A stretch of DNA of 32,070 nucleotides from Bacteroidia bacterium (lineage in GTDB: Bacteria; Bacteroidota; Bacteroidia; SpSt-205): the NCBI GenBank assembly GCA_025057135.1, contig JANWXY010000030.1, positions 1-32,070 of the forward strand, in the 5' to 3' direction. Below, one piece after another: positions 1,596 through 9,658 of this stretch. A program made the translations under genes and the position numbers. Below the pieces are notes generated by a model. The model had not been told where the DNA came from. It saw only the letters and a program-made list of their open reading frames with translations, and did no database searches. How positions within the stretch are numbered: the first letter of the stretch is position 1; each line of letters begins with the position of its first letter.

Positions 1596-2525
1596 CTAAG
1601 TAAAATGCATGTACTGATTTCGCAGATAACCCTGAGCAAACTCCTCTCCTGAGATAGGTTTTTTGCCTTCTAACTGAAGGCTGAGGATTTGGAGGGGGGC
1701 ATTCTGACAGGCTACCACAGTCGTTTTATCCTCCTGCCATATTGTGCCTGGAAGATGAGTGACTCGGCGGGAAGGGAGCCTCTGGACTTTGAGGACATGC
1801 ACACGCTTGCCTTGGAAGGTAGTCCATGCTCGCGGTTCTGGGGATAGGGCTCGGATAAAGTTATACACTTCCTCTGCGGGTCTATTCCAACTGATGCGAG
1901 TATTTTCTGTGGAGAGCTTGGGGGCGTAAGGTGCATCAGGGATATTGGGCTGAGGTGTCGGCTCTATTTTTTGCGTAGCCAAGCCTTCTATGGCTTCTAT
2001 AAGAAGGTCTGCCCCAATTTGGGAAAGGAAACGAGTAAGTTCTCCGGCATCCCATTCCTCGGGCAGAGGAAAGGAGCGCTGGAGAACAATCTCTCCTGTG
2101 TCTACTCCCTCTCGAATGCGAAAGATGGTTATCCCAGTCACCTTTTCCCCAGCCATAATGCTCCAAGGAATAGGGGCTGGCCCTCGATAGGCAGGTAATA
2201 AGGAGGGATGAATGTTTAGAGCTCCAAAGGGAGGCAGTTCCCATATAGAGCGGGGGAGGATGCGATAGGCTACTACGACAAAAACATGGGCTTCCAGAGC
2301 CCGCAAGCGTTCTGGGAGAGAAGGCTCCTTTAAGCTCTCTACTTCCCAAATCGGTAAGTTGAGGCGCAGAGCTTCTTCTTTGATAGGGGTGGGGCGTAGC
2401 TGATGTCCCCGTCCTGCAGGCTTATCGGGGTTAGTGATGACTGCCATCAGCTTGTGGGGGGAATGAATTAGCCGTCGCAAAGCAGGGATTCCAAATGCTC
2501 CATTTCCGAAAAAAACGACTCGCAT
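1596..2525 (-). CDS. fmt: Methionyl-tRNA formyltransferase
   Basis: Transfers a formyl group from 10-formyl-THF to initiator Met-tRNA. The 309-residue length is normal. The N-terminal Rossmann-like domain starts MRVVFFGNGAFGIPAL. The catalytic segment NIHPSLLPAYRGPAP (~106-120) carries the Asn and His, and EGVDTGEI carries the catalytic Asp. The C-terminal OB-like tRNA-binding domain is present (YNFIRALSPEPRAWT onward). The ATG shares its A with the stop of leuS (TAATG at 2523-2527), so the two genes are translationally coupled. No promoter of its own is apparent. Confidence 0.96.
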   Translation of the reverse strand: MRVVFFGNGAFGIPALRRLIHSPHKLMAVITNPDKPAGRGHQLRPTPIKEEALRLNLPIWEVESLKEPSLPERLRALEAHVFVVVAYRILPRSIWELPPFGALNIHPSLLPAYRGPAPIPWSIMAGEKVTGITIFRIREGVDTGEIVLQRSFPLPEEWDAGELTRFLSQIGADLLIEAIEGLATQKIEPTPQPNIPDAPYAPKLSTENTRISWNRPAEEVYNFIRALSPEPRAWTTFQGKRVHVLKVQRLPSRRVTHLPGTIWQEDKTTVVACQNAPLQILSLQLEGKKPISGEEFAQGYLRNQYMHFT

Positions 2526-5305
2526 TAGACGACTACATTGATGATTTTGCCAGGGACGATCACGATGCGGCGTATATCTTTTCCGTTAGTGTATTTTGAC
2601 AGCCGTTCGTCTTGACGCACGAGGGGTTCTATCTGTTCGGCGCTCCACTCAGCAGGAACGCGCAAGTGAAGCCTTAGCTTGCCATTTACTGAGACGGGGT
2701 ATTCTATCTCTTGTTGAGTGAGATACTCGGGGAGCCATTCAGGCCATGGAGCTTCCCAGAGGGGCTGTGTTTCTCCGGCTCGTTCCCATAGCTCATGGGC
2801 GATATGAGGCGCAAAAGGTTCCAATAATATGAGTGCGGGGAGCCATATGGATTTTTTGCGGCAGCCCAAACGCTGCATTTCATTCAAGAATATCATGAAG
2901 TGGGACACACAAGTATTCAAACTAAGGCGTTCTATATCTTCGGAGACTCGTTTGATGAGGGTGTGAAGGTGGCGAAGTTCCTCAGCAGAGGGGCCCTCCT
3001 CCACGAGCAAAATGTCATTACCTTCGGTATCTTCTCGTCCGGTCAGGAATCGCCATAGCTTTCGCACAAACTGATATGTCCCTTGTATGCCTCGGGGGTC
3101 CCACGGTTTGGTTTGAGTCAAAGGCCCGAGAAACATCTCATACAACCGAAAAGCATCTGCACCATACCGCTCACATAATTCATCGGGCGTGATAACATTG
3201 TGAAAGGACTTTGACATTTTCTCAATCAGCGGTTCGCCGTGAAACTCCCCCGCGGCATTAGTTTCAAAGTGGTCATGAGCATATTCTGGCATCCAGCGCC
3301 TGAAGCCTTCTATATCTACTCGGGTGTCATCTGTCAGAGAAAGGTCCACTCGGATGGGCAAGTATTGACTTTTATCGGTAATCAAGTCAGCTGAGGTAAA
3401 GACAGGAGCGTCTTTTCTGCGATAGATTAGGATAGAGCGTCCTAAAATCATCCCTTGATTGACGAGCTTTGTGAAAGGCTCTTTCACAGGGCAAACGCCG
3501 ATATCGTACAAGAAGTGCGTCCAGAATCGCGCATACAGCAAGTGACCTACGGCATGTTCCGAACCGCCTACATATAAATCTACTGGAAGCCAGTATTGGA
3601 GCTTTTCTCTGTCTGCGAGGGATTGGGCGTTATGAGGGTCACAGTAACGAAGAAAATACCAACTCGAGCCTGCCCAGCCGGGCATTGTGTCTGTCTCGCG
3701 CTGACTGCCATCGGGGAGCTGAACCCACGAAGATAAGCGTGCCAGAGGGGACTGTGCTTCTCCTGTGGGCTCATAACGCTCTATGGGGGGAAGTTCTACG
3801 GGAAGGTTTTCCTCTGGATATGGCACATCCCCTTTCCATCGGATAGGAAAAGGTTCCCCCCAGTAGCGCTGACGAGAAAAAACGGCGTCTCTTAGGCGAT
3901 ATTGTGTAGCAGGTGCGCCTTTCCCATCTACCTGTAGCTGCCGACGAATGGTCTGAATAGCTTCCTCCACAGACAGCCCCGTAAGAAATCCAGAGTCTTT
4001 TAGGCGACCTTCTCGGGCTTCATATGCCTGATTTTCTGCGGAGATACCGTCTATGATAGAGCGGATAGGGAGTCCGAAGTGCTTTGCGAAAGCCCAGTCT
4101 CGGGCATCATGCGCGGGTACAGCCATAATAGCTCCCGTTCCATAGCCCATAAGTACATAGTCGCTGATGTAAATGGGTAGCTTTTCGGCTGTATAGGGGT
4201 GGATGGCATAAGTGCCTAAAAACACCCCCGTCGGCGTACCACCTCCGACAAGGCGCTCTCTCTCCAAGCGATTTTTTGCCCAGTCCCGATAGGTAGAAAC
4301 GCTGGGGCGTTCCGCAGGCGCTGTGAGTTTATCCACCAGAGGATGCTCAGGAGCTAATACCAGAAATGTCGCTCCCCATAAAGTGTCTGGACGCGTGGAA
4401 AAAACTCTAATCAGAAGCTTTTCCCCCTCGGGAGATTCTGCGGAAAAGTCTATGAAAGCGCCTTCAGAGCGTCCTATCCAGTTGCGCTGCTGCTCTTTGA
4501 TGGCAGGGGACCAATCCAACCCTTCCAAATGCTCTAATAGCCTATCCGCATATGCAGTGATCCGAAGGAACCATTGACGCAGAGGTATGCGATACACGGG
4601 ATGACCGCCCCTTTCGGAGAGGCCGTCCTTGACTTCTTCGTTAGCGAGTACGGTACCCAAGGCAGGACACCAATTTACCACGGCTTCCTGTGTATAGGCT
4701 AATCGGTAGTACATCAGGATGCGTTGGCGCTCAGCTTCATCCCAGCTTTTCCATTCATCAGCCGAAAAGTGTCCATCATAAGTGCTTGCAGCTTGTACAG
4801 ACCGATTGCCCTGAGTCTCAAAGATTTTGATTAGTTCTGTAATAGGACGGGCTTTCTGCGCTTCTTTATCATACCAGTGGGAAAAAAGCTGCAGGAATAT
4901 CCATTGTGTCCATTTATAGTAAGAAGGTTCGCTGGTACGCACTGCCCGAGACCAGGCATATCCCAAGCCTATCCGCTTGAGCTGCTCGGTGTAGCGCTGA
5001 ATGTTTTTCTCCGTAGTAATAGCTGGATGTATGCCGGTGCGGAGGGCGTACTGCTCCGCTGGCAAGCCGAAAGAATCAAATCCCATCGGATGTAAGACAG
5101 CATAGCCTCGGTGGCGTTTATACCTCGCAATGATGTCGGTGGCGATATAACCCAGTGGATGCCCTACATGTAGCCCTGCCCCAGAGGGATACGGAAACAT
5201 ATCTAATACATAATACTTAGGTTTTTGAGGAAAATCTCCCACTTCATAAGCGCCAACAGCCTCCCAGTGAGCCTGCCATTTACGGTCTATGGAAGCAAAG
5301 GACAT
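2525..5305 (-). CDS. leuS: Leucyl-tRNA synthetase
   Basis: Class I synthetase charging tRNA-Leu, 926 residues, in the upper range for bacterial LeuRS. HIGH signature: PYPSGAGLHVGHPLGY near the N-terminus. KMSKS loop: EKMSKSFHNVITPDEL. The CP1 editing domain is intact, with VPAHDARDWAFA containing the conserved Asp. The segment TMPGWAGSSWYFLRY is also typical. The C-terminus ends in the usual tRNA-binding domain (DIRRIVIVPGKIINVVV). It is the first gene of a leuS-fmt unit with a box TATTTTCG 6 nt upstream of the ATG at 5305. A run of residues around 165-185 (RSVQAASTYDGHFSADEW) looks like a lineage insertion. Confidence 0.97.
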   Translation of the reverse strand: MSFASIDRKWQAHWEAVGAYEVGDFPQKPKYYVLDMFPYPSGAGLHVGHPLGYIATDIIARYKRHRGYAVLHPMGFDSFGLPAEQYALRTGIHPAITTEKNIQRYTEQLKRIGLGYAWSRAVRTSEPSYYKWTQWIFLQLFSHWYDKEAQKARPITELIKIFETQGNRSVQAASTYDGHFSADEWKSWDEAERQRILMYYRLAYTQEAVVNWCPALGTVLANEEVKDGLSERGGHPVYRIPLRQWFLRITAYADRLLEHLEGLDWSPAIKEQQRNWIGRSEGAFIDFSAESPEGEKLLIRVFSTRPDTLWGATFLVLAPEHPLVDKLTAPAERPSVSTYRDWAKNRLERERLVGGGTPTGVFLGTYAIHPYTAEKLPIYISDYVLMGYGTGAIMAVPAHDARDWAFAKHFGLPIRSIIDGISAENQAYEAREGRLKDSGFLTGLSVEEAIQTIRRQLQVDGKGAPATQYRLRDAVFSRQRYWGEPFPIRWKGDVPYPEENLPVELPPIERYEPTGEAQSPLARLSSWVQLPDGSQRETDTMPGWAGSSWYFLRYCDPHNAQSLADREKLQYWLPVDLYVGGSEHAVGHLLYARFWTHFLYDIGVCPVKEPFTKLVNQGMILGRSILIYRRKDAPVFTSADLITDKSQYLPIRVDLSLTDDTRVDIEGFRRWMPEYAHDHFETNAAGEFHGEPLIEKMSKSFHNVITPDELCERYGADAFRLYEMFLGPLTQTKPWDPRGIQGTYQFVRKLWRFLTGREDTEGNDILLVEEGPSAEELRHLHTLIKRVSEDIERLSLNTCVSHFMIFLNEMQRLGCRKKSIWLPALILLEPFAPHIAHELWERAGETQPLWEAPWPEWLPEYLTQQEIEYPVSVNGKLRLHLRVPAEWSAEQIEPLVRQDERLSKYTNGKDIRRIVIVPGKIINVVV

Positions 5306-5378: not shown

Positions 5379-5975
5379 GTGCATCATTTAGGGCATATAT
5401 TTCTGGCGGAGTCTCCGCCGGGGTTTCGGTTTGGGGCATTTATTGCAGATGGGGTACGGGCTCGTAGGTTTGATGAACTTCCGCCCGAGGTGCAGATGGG
5501 TGTGCGCTTTCACAGATGGGTAGATTGGCAGACAGATAAACATCCGGCATTTTTGGATGCGAGGCGGATTTTGCGGTCAGTCGCAGGTAGATATGCGGGA
5601 CTAATAGTAGATTTATGGTTAGATGTAGCTTTGGGGGAAAACTGGACCGAGTTTTGCGATGAGCCGATAGATGAATTTGAAGAACGCTTTCGTCGCGAGA
5701 CTTTGAAGCCATATTATTCTTGGGCTCCGCCGAGCTGGAAAGCCTTTATGGAGAGTATAAACACAGAGCGCCTGCTCTTGCGCTTCGGGCACAGCGCGGG
5801 CATGCTATCACATATGGAGAGGTTTATCTTACGACGTGGTCTCCCATTGGATAGTGCCCTCGTACGACGGGCTATCCAGCAGCACGAGGAGCAGTTGTCT
5901 ATACTGCTGGTCAAATTCTGGCGAGAGGCCGTGGCTTGGCGAGCCACAGCCAGTACCTTCACCTCAAAACTCTAA
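5379..5975 (+). CDS. AcpH-like acyl-carrier-protein phosphodiesterase family protein
   Basis: The 198-residue protein resembles AcpH (DUF479), which removes 4'-phosphopantetheine from acyl carrier protein. Aligned by eye, the family landmarks are LGHIFLA (His6), FGAFIADGVR (Asp24), FHRWVDWQTD (His45, Asp49, Asp53) and IVDLWLDVALGENW (Asp78, Asp82). In E. coli the last segment reads LDxxWDHFL; here the His after Asp82 is Val, so activity may be altered. The start is GTG; the first residues (HHLGHIF) already align with the family N-terminus. It is the first gene of the plus-strand cluster ending at 9658. AcpH is usually a stand-alone gene, so the neighbours say little about substrate. Confidence 0.75.
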   Translation: MHHLGHIFLAESPPGFRFGAFIADGVRARRFDELPPEVQMGVRFHRWVDWQTDKHPAFLDARRILRSVAGRYAGLIVDLWLDVALGENWTEFCDEPIDEFEERFRRETLKPYYSWAPPSWKAFMESINTERLLLRFGHSAGMLSHMERFILRRGLPLDSALVRRAIQQHEEQLSILLVKFWREAVAWRATASTFTSKL

Positions 5976-5980
5976 CTTTG
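5973..5980 (+). promoter_or_regulatory. Internal -7 box TAACTTTG before the LOG-like gene
   Basis: TAACTTTG overlaps the stop codon of the AcpH-like gene and lies 9 nt before the ATG at 5990 (12 nt before the next ATG). It may give the downstream genes extra transcription. Confidence 0.45.
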
Positions 5981-5989
5981 CTAATATCT

Positions 5990-6709
5990 ATGATGCCCCC
6001 GACTAACGGACTACCTAAAAACATCTTCAATAAGACTCGGGATATTCGGGAAAAACGCGCCACAGATACCTGGCAGATATTCCGTATCATGGCTGAATTC
6101 GTGGATGGATTTGAAACGCTGGCTCGTATAGGCCCCTGTGTGTCTATTTTTGGTTCGGCCCGGAGTCAGCCCGGGAGTGCTCATTATGAGTTAGGTGTGG
6201 AGGTAGCGAAAGCCCTCGTAGAAAATGGGTATGGCATCATTACAGGCGGCGGACCAGGAGTCATGGAAGCGGCTAATAAAGGCGCGAAGCTCTTGGGTGG
6301 GCATTCGGTCGGACTAAACATCGTTCTACCTTTTGAGCAGCACCCTAATCCCTATGTAGATGAGAACCTCCTGATACACTTTGACTACTTTTTTGTGCGA
6401 AAGGTTATGTTCGTCAAGTATGCCCAGGCATTTGTGGTCTTGCCAGGGGGGTTTGGCACGATGGATGAGCTTTTTGAAGCGCTTACGCTTATCCAGACCC
6501 GTAAGATAGAGCGTTTCCCTGTCGTAATGGTAGGGACTAAGTACTGGGGCGGCATGGTAGAGTGGCTCAGATCAGTCGTGCTGGAAGAGTGGGGATACAT
6601 TTCTGCGGAGGATATGTTTCTTTTCTCACTGGTAGATACGCCTCAAGAAGTTGTGGATACCATAAATAGCTTTTACAGGCAGCGGATTGAGCAGCTGCAA
6701 CTCGGCTGA
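5990..6709 (+). CDS. LOG family protein (nucleoside 5'-monophosphate phosphoribohydrolase-like)
   Basis: The 239-residue Rossmann-like protein carries the family signatures GGGPGVMEAANKGA (~87-100), an FVRKVMF segment with the conserved Arg137-Lys138, and PGGFGTMDE (~152-160). These are the LOG/TIGR00730 landmarks; members split a nucleoside monophosphate into base and ribose 5-phosphate. The N-terminal ~40 residues before the Rossmann core are longer than in plant LOG proteins, as in many bacterial forms. I chose ATG 5990 (the first of two adjacent Met codons) because the reading frame opened at 5936 overlaps AcpH and precedes the TAACTTTG box. The actual nucleotide substrate cannot be read from sequence. 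Confidence 0.9.
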   Translation: MMPPTNGLPKNIFNKTRDIREKRATDTWQIFRIMAEFVDGFETLARIGPCVSIFGSARSQPGSAHYELGVEVAKALVENGYGIITGGGPGVMEAANKGAKLLGGHSVGLNIVLPFEQHPNPYVDENLLIHFDYFFVRKVMFVKYAQAFVVLPGGFGTMDELFEALTLIQTRKIERFPVVMVGTKYWGGMVEWLRSVVLEEWGYISAEDMFLFSLVDTPQEVVDTINSFYRQRIEQLQLG

Positions 6710-6711
6710 GA

Positions 6712-7314
6712 ATGCTTTTATATCCCCTGCGATGGCTTTTTAGGCGGATTTTGGGGTGGGTGCTGACGATTGTTTTCGTAACGGTAGGCGCTTTATGGAT
6801 TCTGCGTTGGGTACCAGTGCCACCAGTGGGGGTTATAGTAGGTTTTTTTTCGGGGAAAGTGCCTCAATGGGGATGGTTTGGAGATAGTCCTGTACGGGAG
6901 CGATTTATTTATGTCATCCGAAAGTTAGAAGAGCCGGGTGCAGGTCTGCGTCGTCGCCTTCCGCCCCTTTCTCAGAGAGTAGCTGAGCTGCTTTTTTACC
7001 CCCATAATGCTCCTAAGTGGGGTAGCGGTCTCCTTGGCATGCTAATCCGGGCTCTATGGGGAGAGGAGCGAATCATCGTGTTTTATCTCAACTCCATTCG
7101 GTATGGTTCAGATATTTACGGGGTAAAAGCAGCTGCGCACGCTTTTTTTCACAAAGACATAGAAAGTCTCACACCCTCAGAGTCTGCGGAGCTTATTTTG
7201 CGCAAGGAAGGGTTGGCAATCAGAAGAGATTTGTCTGGGCCACTTTTGCGAGAGCGTGACAAGTTAGAAAAATTATTTATTTCAGGGGCAACCAATGCGT
7301 CGCAAACGCAGTAA
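6712..7314 (+). CDS. MtgA-like GT51 protein lacking catalytic motifs
   Basis: The 200-residue protein has one N-terminal membrane helix (~10-32), followed by a WVPVPPVGVIVGF segment matching the MtgA entry region. The C-terminal part fits the GT51 fold: RIIVFYLNSIRYGSDIYGVKAAAHAFFHKDIESLTPSESAELI aligns, region by region, with the MtgA stretch containing RIL.YLN...G..G..AAA..YF.K...L...EAA. The catalytic EDxxFxxHxGxD motif is absent: VIRKLEEPG is all that remains there. The GGSTITQQ segment is replaced by LPPLSQR, and the later catalytic-helper Glu and basic residues are gone. True MtgA has ~230-240 residues. It is therefore probably not a peptidoglycan polymerase, but an intact reading frame suggests a kept structural role. 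It starts 2 nt after the LOG-like stop and overlaps mltG by 20 nt. Confidence 0.75.
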   Translation: MLLYPLRWLFRRILGWVLTIVFVTVGALWILRWVPVPPVGVIVGFFSGKVPQWGWFGDSPVRERFIYVIRKLEEPGAGLRRRLPPLSQRVAELLFYPHNAPKWGSGLLGMLIRALWGEERIIVFYLNSIRYGSDIYGVKAAAHAFFHKDIESLTPSESAELILRKEGLAIRRDLSGPLLRERDKLEKLFISGATNASQTQ

Positions 7315-8356
7315 AAGTGCCAAAAAGCTGCACAAGCTATCGTCTTTCCCCTGGCTGCAAAGCAAGCGGTTTAGAGTTATCTTGGCGGTTGGGCTCATAA
7401 GTACCATTCTTCTTCTATCAGCCCAGTTTGTTGCTTCGGTAGAGGTGAAGGAGCCTATGACGCTCTACATCCCGATAGACCCTAAGGCCCGAGAAGAGCA
7501 GAGCAAGCAGGTGTCTATGATTTTTCCGAGCTATACCCTCTGGCATTGGCTTGTGCGTTATGGCGGGCTTCGGGCGGGTAGGTATGAAATTCAGGTGGGG
7601 GAAAGGGCTTTCGTCGTATGGCGTCGGCTACGGAATGGCCTGCAATCTCCTGTGCGGGTATATCTGCGTCCGCAGCGCAGCCCAGAGCGTTTAGCGAAGT
7701 TTCTCGGGGAGGTACTCGCGTATGATTCTGCCACTTGGGCTGCGAGTTTTGCTTCGTATCCGTGGGAGAGTATTGGCCTTACGAGGTATAACTGGATAGG
7801 GATTTTTTTGCCAGATGTGTATGAGCTATACTGGACCACTCCGCCGGAGCGGCTTATTCAGCGGGTCTACGAGGTGTATAGTCGGTTCTGGACTGAGGAG
7901 CGCCGTAGAAAAGCAGAGTCTATTGGCTTCACCCCGATAGAGGTGGTTACTTTGGCTTCTATCGTGGAGTATGAGACCTATCGGAATAGTGAAAAACCCC
8001 TTATTGCAGGCGTATATCTCAATCGTCTGCGTCTCGGCATGCCTCTACAAGCGGACCCAACGGTGATTTTTGCTACTCGGCAGTTTGATGCTAACCGAGT
8101 GACGGCGCGAATGCTGGAAGTGGATTCCCCTTACAATACCTACAAGCGGCGAGGGTTACCCCCAGGTCCCATAGGTATGCCTTCCATAGAGAGTATAGAA
8201 GCCGTCCTAAACTATACGCCGAGTGAGTATTTATTCTTTTGTGCGCGTCCTGACGGGTCTGGATATCATGATTTCTCTAAGAGCTATCCCGAGCATCTCA
8301 TCAAAGCCAAAGCCTATCAGAAAGCCCTCAACCGATGGCTCGCTCAGAAGAGATAA
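7295..8356 (+). CDS. mltG: Endolytic murein transglycosylase MltG (YceG-like)
   Basis: Membrane-anchored lytic transglycosylase that cuts nascent glycan strands and sets their length. At 353 residues it is of normal length. It has a basic N-terminus, one membrane helix (~26-48), a LysM-like region (~55-125), then the catalytic YceG domain. The signature LASIVEYET carries the catalytic Glu (Glu225), followed by AGVYLNRLRLGMPLQADPTV and PYNTYKRRGLPPGPIGMPS, all family hallmarks. The ATG at 7295 lies inside the end of the MtgA-like gene, and the 3' end overlaps the thioesterase gene by 22 nt. Coupling to an MtgA-like protein fits the known functional link between glycan synthesis and MltG. Confidence 0.95.
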   Translation: MRRKRSKSAKKLHKLSSFPWLQSKRFRVILAVGLISTILLLSAQFVASVEVKEPMTLYIPIDPKAREEQSKQVSMIFPSYTLWHWLVRYGGLRAGRYEIQVGERAFVVWRRLRNGLQSPVRVYLRPQRSPERLAKFLGEVLAYDSATWAASFASYPWESIGLTRYNWIGIFLPDVYELYWTTPPERLIQRVYEVYSRFWTEERRRKAESIGFTPIEVVTLASIVEYETYRNSEKPLIAGVYLNRLRLGMPLQADPTVIFATRQFDANRVTARMLEVDSPYNTYKRRGLPPGPIGMPSIESIEAVLNYTPSEYLFFCARPDGSGYHDFSKSYPEHLIKAKAYQKALNRWLAQKR

Positions 8357-8781
8357 AGCCTTTGCTCTGGCAGACTCCGCACGAGGTTCGTCTGCGTGTT
8401 CGCTATGCGGAGACTGACCAAATGGGGGTAGTGTATTATGCCCATTATGCTGTGTATTGTGAGGTGGCTCGTACAGAATGGCTACGCCGTTTGGGTCTGA
8501 CGTATGCAGAGATGGAGGCTGAAATGGGCGTGATGTTACCTGTTCGGCGATTCAGCATTACGTATCATCGCCCTGCGCGCTATGATGATGAGCTGCGGAT
8601 AGAGTCGTGGCTTTCAGAGCCTCCTGCCACTCGTTTGCACTTTCAGCATCGGATATATCGGTCGGAGGAGCTGCTCGCAGAAGCCGAGGTACTGCTGATT
8701 TTTGTAGATAAAAAAACTTGGCGTCCCTGCCGTCCGCCACAAGCATTTTATGAAGCATTGGCTGAGGCGAACCTTCGCTAA
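8335..8781 (+). CDS. YbgC-like acyl-CoA thioesterase (4HBT hotdog fold)
   Basis: The 148-residue hotdog-fold protein has RYAETDQMGVVYYAHYAVYCEVARTEWLR, the YbgC/4HBT signature; the Asp of ETDQMG is the likely catalytic residue. The rest (RFSITYHRPARYDDELRIESWL...FVDKKTWRPCRPP) follows the family pattern. It should hydrolyse an acyl-CoA thioester in the cytoplasm; chain preference is unknown. In proteobacteria ybgC sits with tol-pal; here it sits in an envelope-themed cluster overlapping mltG and the YihY-like gene. The ATG overlaps mltG by 22 nt, and no other Met allows a complete domain. Confidence 0.9.
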   Translation: MARSEEIKPLLWQTPHEVRLRVRYAETDQMGVVYYAHYAVYCEVARTEWLRRLGLTYAEMEAEMGVMLPVRRFSITYHRPARYDDELRIESWLSEPPATRLHFQHRIYRSEELLAEAEVLLIFVDKKTWRPCRPPQAFYEALAEANLR

Positions 8782-9658
8782 GGTGACGATGCTTCAATTC
8801 CCGGGGTTTCGTGGGGTCCGCTTAGGGACCGTTATTGTGCTTTTTTGGCGAAATGTCACCCATCCCAGCTTCACTTTGCGAGGCAGTGCTATGGCTTTCA
8901 GCTTCTTCTTTGCGTTATTTCCAGGGCTCTTGTTTGCGCTTTCGTGGCTTAGTTACTTGCCTTTTGAGCGATTTGATGCCCTTCTACAATATCGGCTCGG
9001 CGAAGTTTTGCCCCCTCCTGTCTATCAGCTCGTGCACGACATTGTTTTTCAAGAACTGTACGGGCGTAAAAACTGGACGCTCCTCTCAACATCGCTTTTT
9101 CTGGCGATGTATTCATTGTGGCAGGGTATGCTTACGATGCTTCGGGCATTCCTTCATGATGATATGCCCAAGCCACCTTTTTGGGTGTTATGGATTCGGG
9201 CTCTATGGCTGGTGGGGTTTTTACTTCTGCTCGTGATAGCCAATCTGACTTTCTCTTTTCTCCAGGACAGACACCTCTCAGCGATGCTCTCTGCGATTCT
9301 TCATTCGCCTGTGGGGCCTGGAGTAGAGGTGCTTTTGGGAATACTCAAGTTTATCACACTTTTTCTGATTGTGAGTGGTGTCGTGGAAGTGATGTATCGA
9401 GCCGGTATGCCTCGTCGCAGCTTACCCTACATAATCTCGCCGGGGGCGTTTATCGCTACGTTTCTGTTGGGAGCCGCCATGAAGCTCCTATCATGGTATT
9501 TTCTGGCTGTGGCTAATTTCAGCCGCTTCTATGGAAGCATAGCCGCTGTGATTGCCCTTATGGTATGGTTCTACTGGTTATCCATCGTACTGCTGGTGGG
9601 CTTTGAGATAAACTACAGCCTGTACCGCTCCATTTTGAGGACAAGAGATACCTTCTGA
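8750..9658 (+). CDS. YihY/BrkB family inner-membrane protein
   Basis: The 302-residue protein has about six membrane helices. The family landmarks are the N-terminal AMAFSFFFALFPGLLFALSW segment, the central TLLSTSLFLAMYSLWQGMLTMLRAF region, and the C-terminal FYGSIAAVIALMVWFYWLSIVLLVGFEIN. YihY proteins were once annotated as ribonuclease BN, which is wrong for the family; their function is still unclear. The start at 8750 overlaps the thioesterase gene by 32 nt. ATG 8789, 7 nt after that gene's stop, is an equally plausible start and would remove 13 basic residues. It is the last gene of the plus-strand cluster. Confidence 0.88.
   Translation: MKHWLRRTFAKVTMLQFPGFRGVRLGTVIVLFWRNVTHPSFTLRGSAMAFSFFFALFPGLLFALSWLSYLPFERFDALLQYRLGEVLPPPVYQLVHDIVFQELYGRKNWTLLSTSLFLAMYSLWQGMLTMLRAFLHDDMPKPPFWVLWIRALWLVGFLLLLVIANLTFSFLQDRHLSAMLSAILHSPVGPGVEVLLGILKFITLFLIVSGVVEVMYRAGMPRRSLPYIISPGAFIATFLLGAAMKLLSWYFLAVANFSRFYGSIAAVIALMVWFYWLSIVLLVGFEINYSLYRSILRTRDTF

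Follow-up and report, generated by a model that had tools for sequence, protein, structure and literature searches.

A conserved MtgA-derived protein that has lost the GT51 catalytic motifs is encoded directly before mltG in one family of uncultured Bacteroidia

What is left for an MtgA-derived protein to do when the motifs of GT51 catalysis have gone from it, and why is its gene kept directly in front of mltG? This question is raised by an open reading frame (ORF) at 6712..7314 on the forward strand of the window (i.e., the whole stretch of 32,070 nucleotides analysed here; all features given below by window position lie on the same strand). The ORF encodes an MtgA-derived GT51 protein of 200 aa with an N-terminal membrane anchor, hereafter pMtgA. 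The first-pass annotation had picked out 6889-7050, which is the interior of this ORF, and had read it as a non-enzymatic GT51 relative serving as a scaffold or regulator of MltG.

First of all, pMtgA descends from MtgA. In Pfam, PF00912 is matched by residues 102-162 (profile positions 88-148 only, E 1.4e-11), and the 44.6 bits exceed the cut-off of 27, although this match covers the C-terminal half only. The best NCBIfam model is TIGR02070, the MtgA equivalog, with 57.7 bits against a cut-off of 182.65; that is to say, the equivalog cut-off is not reached, and TIGR02070 is nevertheless matched by 12/12 pMtgA members and is the commonest family among them. When the alignment of the 12 pMtgA family members (A1) was compared by hhalign with that of 15 canonical MtgAs from other Bacteroidia (A4), the probability was 99.4 and E was 7.5e-22, and the aligned span took in almost the entire pMtgA. 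It includes the transmembrane helix (aa 3-31), which is also a helix in the AlphaFold2 model, and the juxtamembrane RWVPVP stretch (aa 32-37; together 6718..6822), which is typical of canonical Bacteroidia MtgAs. The AlphaFold2 models of the window protein (pLDDT 83.4, pTM 0.76) and of the ortholog at locus L067 (pLDDT 89.7, pTM 0.82) were searched against the PDB with Foldseek, and all significant matches of both were GT51 domains (TM about 0.5, probability 1.0, E about 1e-5 to 1e-3). pMtgA is thus predicted to have a GT51-like fold, as had been expected of an MtgA relative, and so modest a TM-score is compatible with a GT51 fold from which a segment is missing. By PF00912, Foldseek and hhalign together, pMtgA belongs to the GT51 superfamily through its descent rather than its activity. 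Since the PF00912 gathering score is exceeded at 6712-7314, automatic annotation would name the protein a transglycosylase.

Such a name would be misleading, because pMtgA has lost motifs 2 and 3 as well as the segment with the catalytic Glu. The hhalign gap of about 23 residues (deletion site 6892..6921) falls on the canonical segment CSEDQNFIKHNGFDFEAIQKA, which is motif 1, and the same gap in the MAFFT alignment shows that EDxxFxxHxG[FI]D has been deleted in 12/12 members, in agreement with what had been noticed in the window alone. Motif 2, G[GA]ST[IL][TS]QQ, is kept by 0/12 members; in the alignment, RGASTISQQ of canonical MtgA is paired with RRLPPLSQR of pMtgA (RLPPLSQR at aa 82-89, 6955..6978, in place of GASTISQQ), which bears out the reported change of GGSTITQQ into LPPLSQR. 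Motif 3 (RKxxE) is overwritten as well, with PKWGS at aa 101-105 (7012..7026) standing for RKGxE, and its E153 is S in 10/12 orthologs. At the C-terminal end, the canonical LPxP and the motif-5-like arginine region have been replaced, so that motif 5 is unrecognisable; the rebuilt end (aa 163-198, 7198..7305) carries the family-specific R164 and P175, followed in the AlphaFold2 model by a long helix (aa 176-198). Six-frame translation of each of the 12 loci contained no catalytic motif shifted to another frame.

What remains is the GT51 core at aa 108-162 (7033..7197; W..ERI..YLN...YG..AA...F.K...L...E.AEL), in which columns are conserved as in canonical MtgA. The claim that YLN...G..YG..AAA..FF.K...L...E.A had survived is right for part of motif 4 (K..I(L/M)E.YLN) and its surroundings, i.e., for Y-L-N, YG, AA, F.K, L and A; it does not hold for the invariant K of W-S-K, which is E in 10/12 members, or for the E of ILExYLN, which is lost. 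Between the 12 pMtgAs and the 15 canonical MtgAs, 16 columns carry one conserved residue that both groups share, including W116, R120, Y125, N127, G137, A140, A141, K148, L153 and A159 (window numbering). Five columns are conserved in both groups yet differ between them, including E153 to S105 and K166 to E118, and about 21 are conserved in the pMtgA family alone (e.g., W8, W29, P38, P51, W53, E160, R164 and P175). In GT51 enzymes, the Glu of motif 1 serves as the catalytic base (PMC3608906), and GTase activity is customarily blocked by mutating it (PMC4632607). As this Glu is gone from pMtgA, lipid II polymerisation by the known mechanism would be impossible, and pMtgA should be unable to act as a GT51 polymerase in that way.

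Is such a protein nevertheless maintained? An ortholog of 190-202 aa is present in all 11 genus and family relatives, and an order-wide profile search found pMtgA in 12/12 genomes of the family, which comprise two genera. No in-frame stop occurs in the 12 sequences, while each of the five other frames contains 2-17. Where NG86 was computable, dN/dS was 0.12-0.18, a value that is approximate because dS is saturated, and pMtgA thus appears to be under purifying selection. The mean pairwise identity is 40% for pMtgA, 61% for MltG and 85% for the upstream LOG protein, which suggests a protein that evolves fast, yet under constraint. A pseudogene or an assembly error is ruled out by the 12 independent genomes in frame, one of which is a single 2.27 Mb contig. 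Taken together, the intact frames and lost motifs in 12/12 genomes strongly support the earlier view that a real protein, a GT51 relative without enzymatic activity, has been maintained beside mltG; reading frame and residue pattern are both conserved in the relatives, and none of the 12 genomes has a catalytic MtgA at this locus.

The spread of pMtgA is narrow. In a tree with canonical MtgA, pMtgA forms one group with 100/100 support. Among 296 class genomes, scores of 236-302 bits are reached by the members of the pMtgA family, and no other match exceeds 73 bits; the non-family matches, among those listed, are mostly MtgAs of canonical length. No further member was found in 395 phylum genomes at 1e-19, nor in the 296 class genomes, and neither pMtgA nor MtgA was found in the sister family of the order (one genome, 77% completeness). 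A scan with alignment A2 returned seven named records with pMtgA, all of them uncultured Bacteroidia MAGs, and an eighth, distant match in Aliiroseovarius (E 5e-7) to the conserved core; a scan of genome contigs with a single pMtgA protein gave no match. With the A1 profile at E<=1e-8, about 10% of class genomes are without a GT51 match. The conversion to a pseudoenzyme probably dates to the ancestor shared by the members of this uncultured Bacteroidia family.

The second part of the question concerns the neighbourhood. The gene mltG (7295..8356, 353 aa, apparently intact) encodes an endolytic murein transglycosylase (PF02618, E 2.9e-66; TIGR00247, 142 bits vs a cut-off of 103.4), and its ATG at 7295 gives an overlap of 20 nt with the pMtgA ORF, exactly as first described along with the intact frame. 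Upstream, separated from pMtgA by 2 nt, lies the gene of a LOG/TIGR00730-type protein of the Lysine_decarbox fold (5936..6709, PF03641), which is kept in 12/12 genomes, and farther upstream in the first genus lies that of an ACP phosphodiesterase-like protein (5379..5975, PF04336), which is absent at the second-genus locus. Downstream follow a YbgC-like thioesterase (8335..8781, PF13279) and a YihY/BrkB-family membrane protein (8750..9658, PF03631). The order LOG - pMtgA - mltG - ybgC is found at 12/12 loci, with -4 to 9 nt between the end of LOG and pMtgA. mltG adjoins pMtgA in all 12 (in G001 it is cut by the contig end), and the overlap is -1 to 26 nt in 9/10 loci measured, the tenth having an ambiguous mltG start. 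In the single-contig genome G005 (KatS3mg025, L011 about 2094-3146), mltG lies in two frames (query residues 2-88 and 86-353), which is a frameshift or a sequencing error, and pMtgA is intact.

Outside the family the arrangement is different. The mltG-ybgC-yihY series also occurs elsewhere in the class with no GT51 gene, and mltG was beside canonical MtgA, within about 1.5 kb, at 0/15 class loci examined. In the sister family (L084, G012), a NAD-dependent epimerase-like gene replaces LOG-pMtgA upstream of mltG, as judged by eye. We infer that an mtgA copy came to lie in front of the mltG operon in the family ancestor and then lost catalysis. Because synteny within the family extends over the entire neighbourhood, the linkage of pMtgA and MltG is partly due to common descent, and the gene trees have support too weak for congruence between the two proteins to be followed in detail.

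The family has other means of polymerising glycan. No true, canonical MtgA was found elsewhere in the 13 genomes of the order, where the other GT51 proteins are of 571-796 aa; the genome of the window itself has three of them (761, 734 and 587 aa). PBP1A-type proteins with full motifs are present in all family genomes examined, and FtsW/RodA-type SEDS proteins in 13/13 genomes of the order. Since lipid II polymerases are still present, pMtgA need not be one. The third GT51 protein of the same genome (L003:1330-3063, G000:C94) measures about 578-587 aa, and most family genomes contain a counterpart of 571-612 aa. Its long N-terminal extension gives no Pfam match, it carries no transpeptidase domain, and its motifs are unusual (EDGLFFFHQGFQ, GAGTITMQ and RKIEE); it looks catalytic but atypical.

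As to function, pMtgA is probably a non-enzymatic partner in wall assembly. The reading that we favour, believed about as much as it is doubted, is that pMtgA is an MtgA pseudoenzyme kept for a non-catalytic job, likely that of placing or tuning MltG, looser forms of regulation included. In B. subtilis, MltG has PBP1 and PBP2B as binding partners and works on nascent strands (PMC8135044), and the E. coli protein has been proposed to terminate strands next to PBP1b (PMC4810414); these contacts between MltG and PBPs, together with the adjacency in 12/12 loci and the overlapping ORFs, make a scaffold or regulator of MltG our best guess. pMtgA would sit in the inner membrane with its core in the periplasm, and its retained surface may dock onto the wall-synthesis machinery, so that it could help to place or tune MltG at the points where nascent glycan emerges from class A PBPs or from the SEDS synthases FtsW and RodA. 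That is to say, a membrane-anchored GT51 body free of catalysis and co-expressed with MltG could take up the synthase-contact position, and from there might either bring MltG in or hold it back. A more tentative form of the proposal, possible but on the doubtful side, is that a GT51 polymerase has turned into a dedicated non-catalytic adaptor which couples the terminator MltG to active synthases and thereby sets the length of glycan strands. Against the MltG-linked pseudoenzyme reading stand the synteny of the neighbourhood described above and the TM-scores to GT51 of no more than about 0.5; the faster evolution of pMtgA compared with its neighbours counts against it as well and would suit a lightly constrained protein.

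A septal structural role independent of MltG ranks next. Reportedly, MtgA of E. coli contacts PBP3, FtsW and FtsN, and pMtgA might have inherited such contacts with the septal synthases as a non-catalytic structural or divisome component, the site before mltG being an operon of convenience. The neighbours LOG, ACP_PD, YbgC and YihY are indeed not wall enzymes, and the existence of mltG-ybgC-yihY without pMtgA elsewhere in the class also agrees with this; however, the LOG-pMtgA-mltG unit is kept in the second genus although the ACP_PD gene is not at that locus, and the direct, usually overlapping partner is another wall gene, so that this role is considered rather unlikely. It is still less probable that pMtgA uses a remnant of the cleft to bind lipid II or the growing glycan, and in this way serves, with no catalysis, as a competitor, sensor or feeder. 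The YLN, YG and AA residues of the GT51 core are retained and the AlphaFold2 models resemble moenomycin-bound as well as apo GT51 domains, but motifs 1, 2 and 3, from which most substrate contacts come, are gone, and the stretch between motifs 1 and 2 is partly gone too. A decaying mtgA relic heading for loss, with which fast evolution and lost active-site motifs would agree, is already disfavoured and hardly credible, for the frame is unbroken, length is near constant, new conserved positions are found in 12/12 genomes of two genera and dN is far under dS; the family-specific conserved residues favour a new role over decay. That pMtgA is still an active glycosyltransferase whose active site has moved would account for the retained fold and membrane anchor and is equally far-fetched, as the motif-1 Glu has no conserved acidic substitute, most members have Ser where motif 3 has its Glu, and the conserved E118, E157 and E160 are located within the retained helices or behind them, off the catalytic alignment position.

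If the favoured MltG-linked reading is right, pMtgA is a candidate regulator of MltG which bears on the placement of MltG and on how glycan-strand length is set. In addition, a natural and conserved GT51 domain that appears to be without catalysis, located beside mltG, offers a test of what GT51 domains do apart from polymerising. It also calls for caution with automatic annotation, since the label "transglycosylase" given by PF00912 is set against a probable incapacity by the known mechanism. A search of open papers brought up neither a GT51 protein or MtgA that is conserved yet non-catalytic nor a GT51 example of a pseudoenzyme that regulates an active paralog.

Among known systems, pMtgA is closest to MtgA (TIGR02070, GT51, PF00912), with which it shares the N-terminal membrane helix, RWVPVP and the helical core YLN...YG..AA..F.K..L...E.A. 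Unlike canonical MtgA, which is mostly of 230-290 aa, it has 190-202 aa, lacks motif 1 through deletion, shows other residues at motifs 2 and 3 and no recognisable motif 5 region, and its gene stands directly before mltG, which accompanies none of the 15 canonical class loci. In predicted fold, as matched by Foldseek, it resembles the GT51 domains of class A PBPs (A. aeolicus PBP1A 2oqo/3d3h, S. aureus PBP2 and E. coli PBP1b), but it has neither a transpeptidase domain nor the catalytic Glu. MltG (YceG), a proposed glycan-strand terminase, is the product of the next gene, which usually overlaps that of pMtgA; unlike MltG, pMtgA comes from an unrelated family and has no lytic-enzyme domain. With its catalytic residues lost and its fold and conserved surface kept, pMtgA is like the pseudoenzymes that regulate active paralogs.
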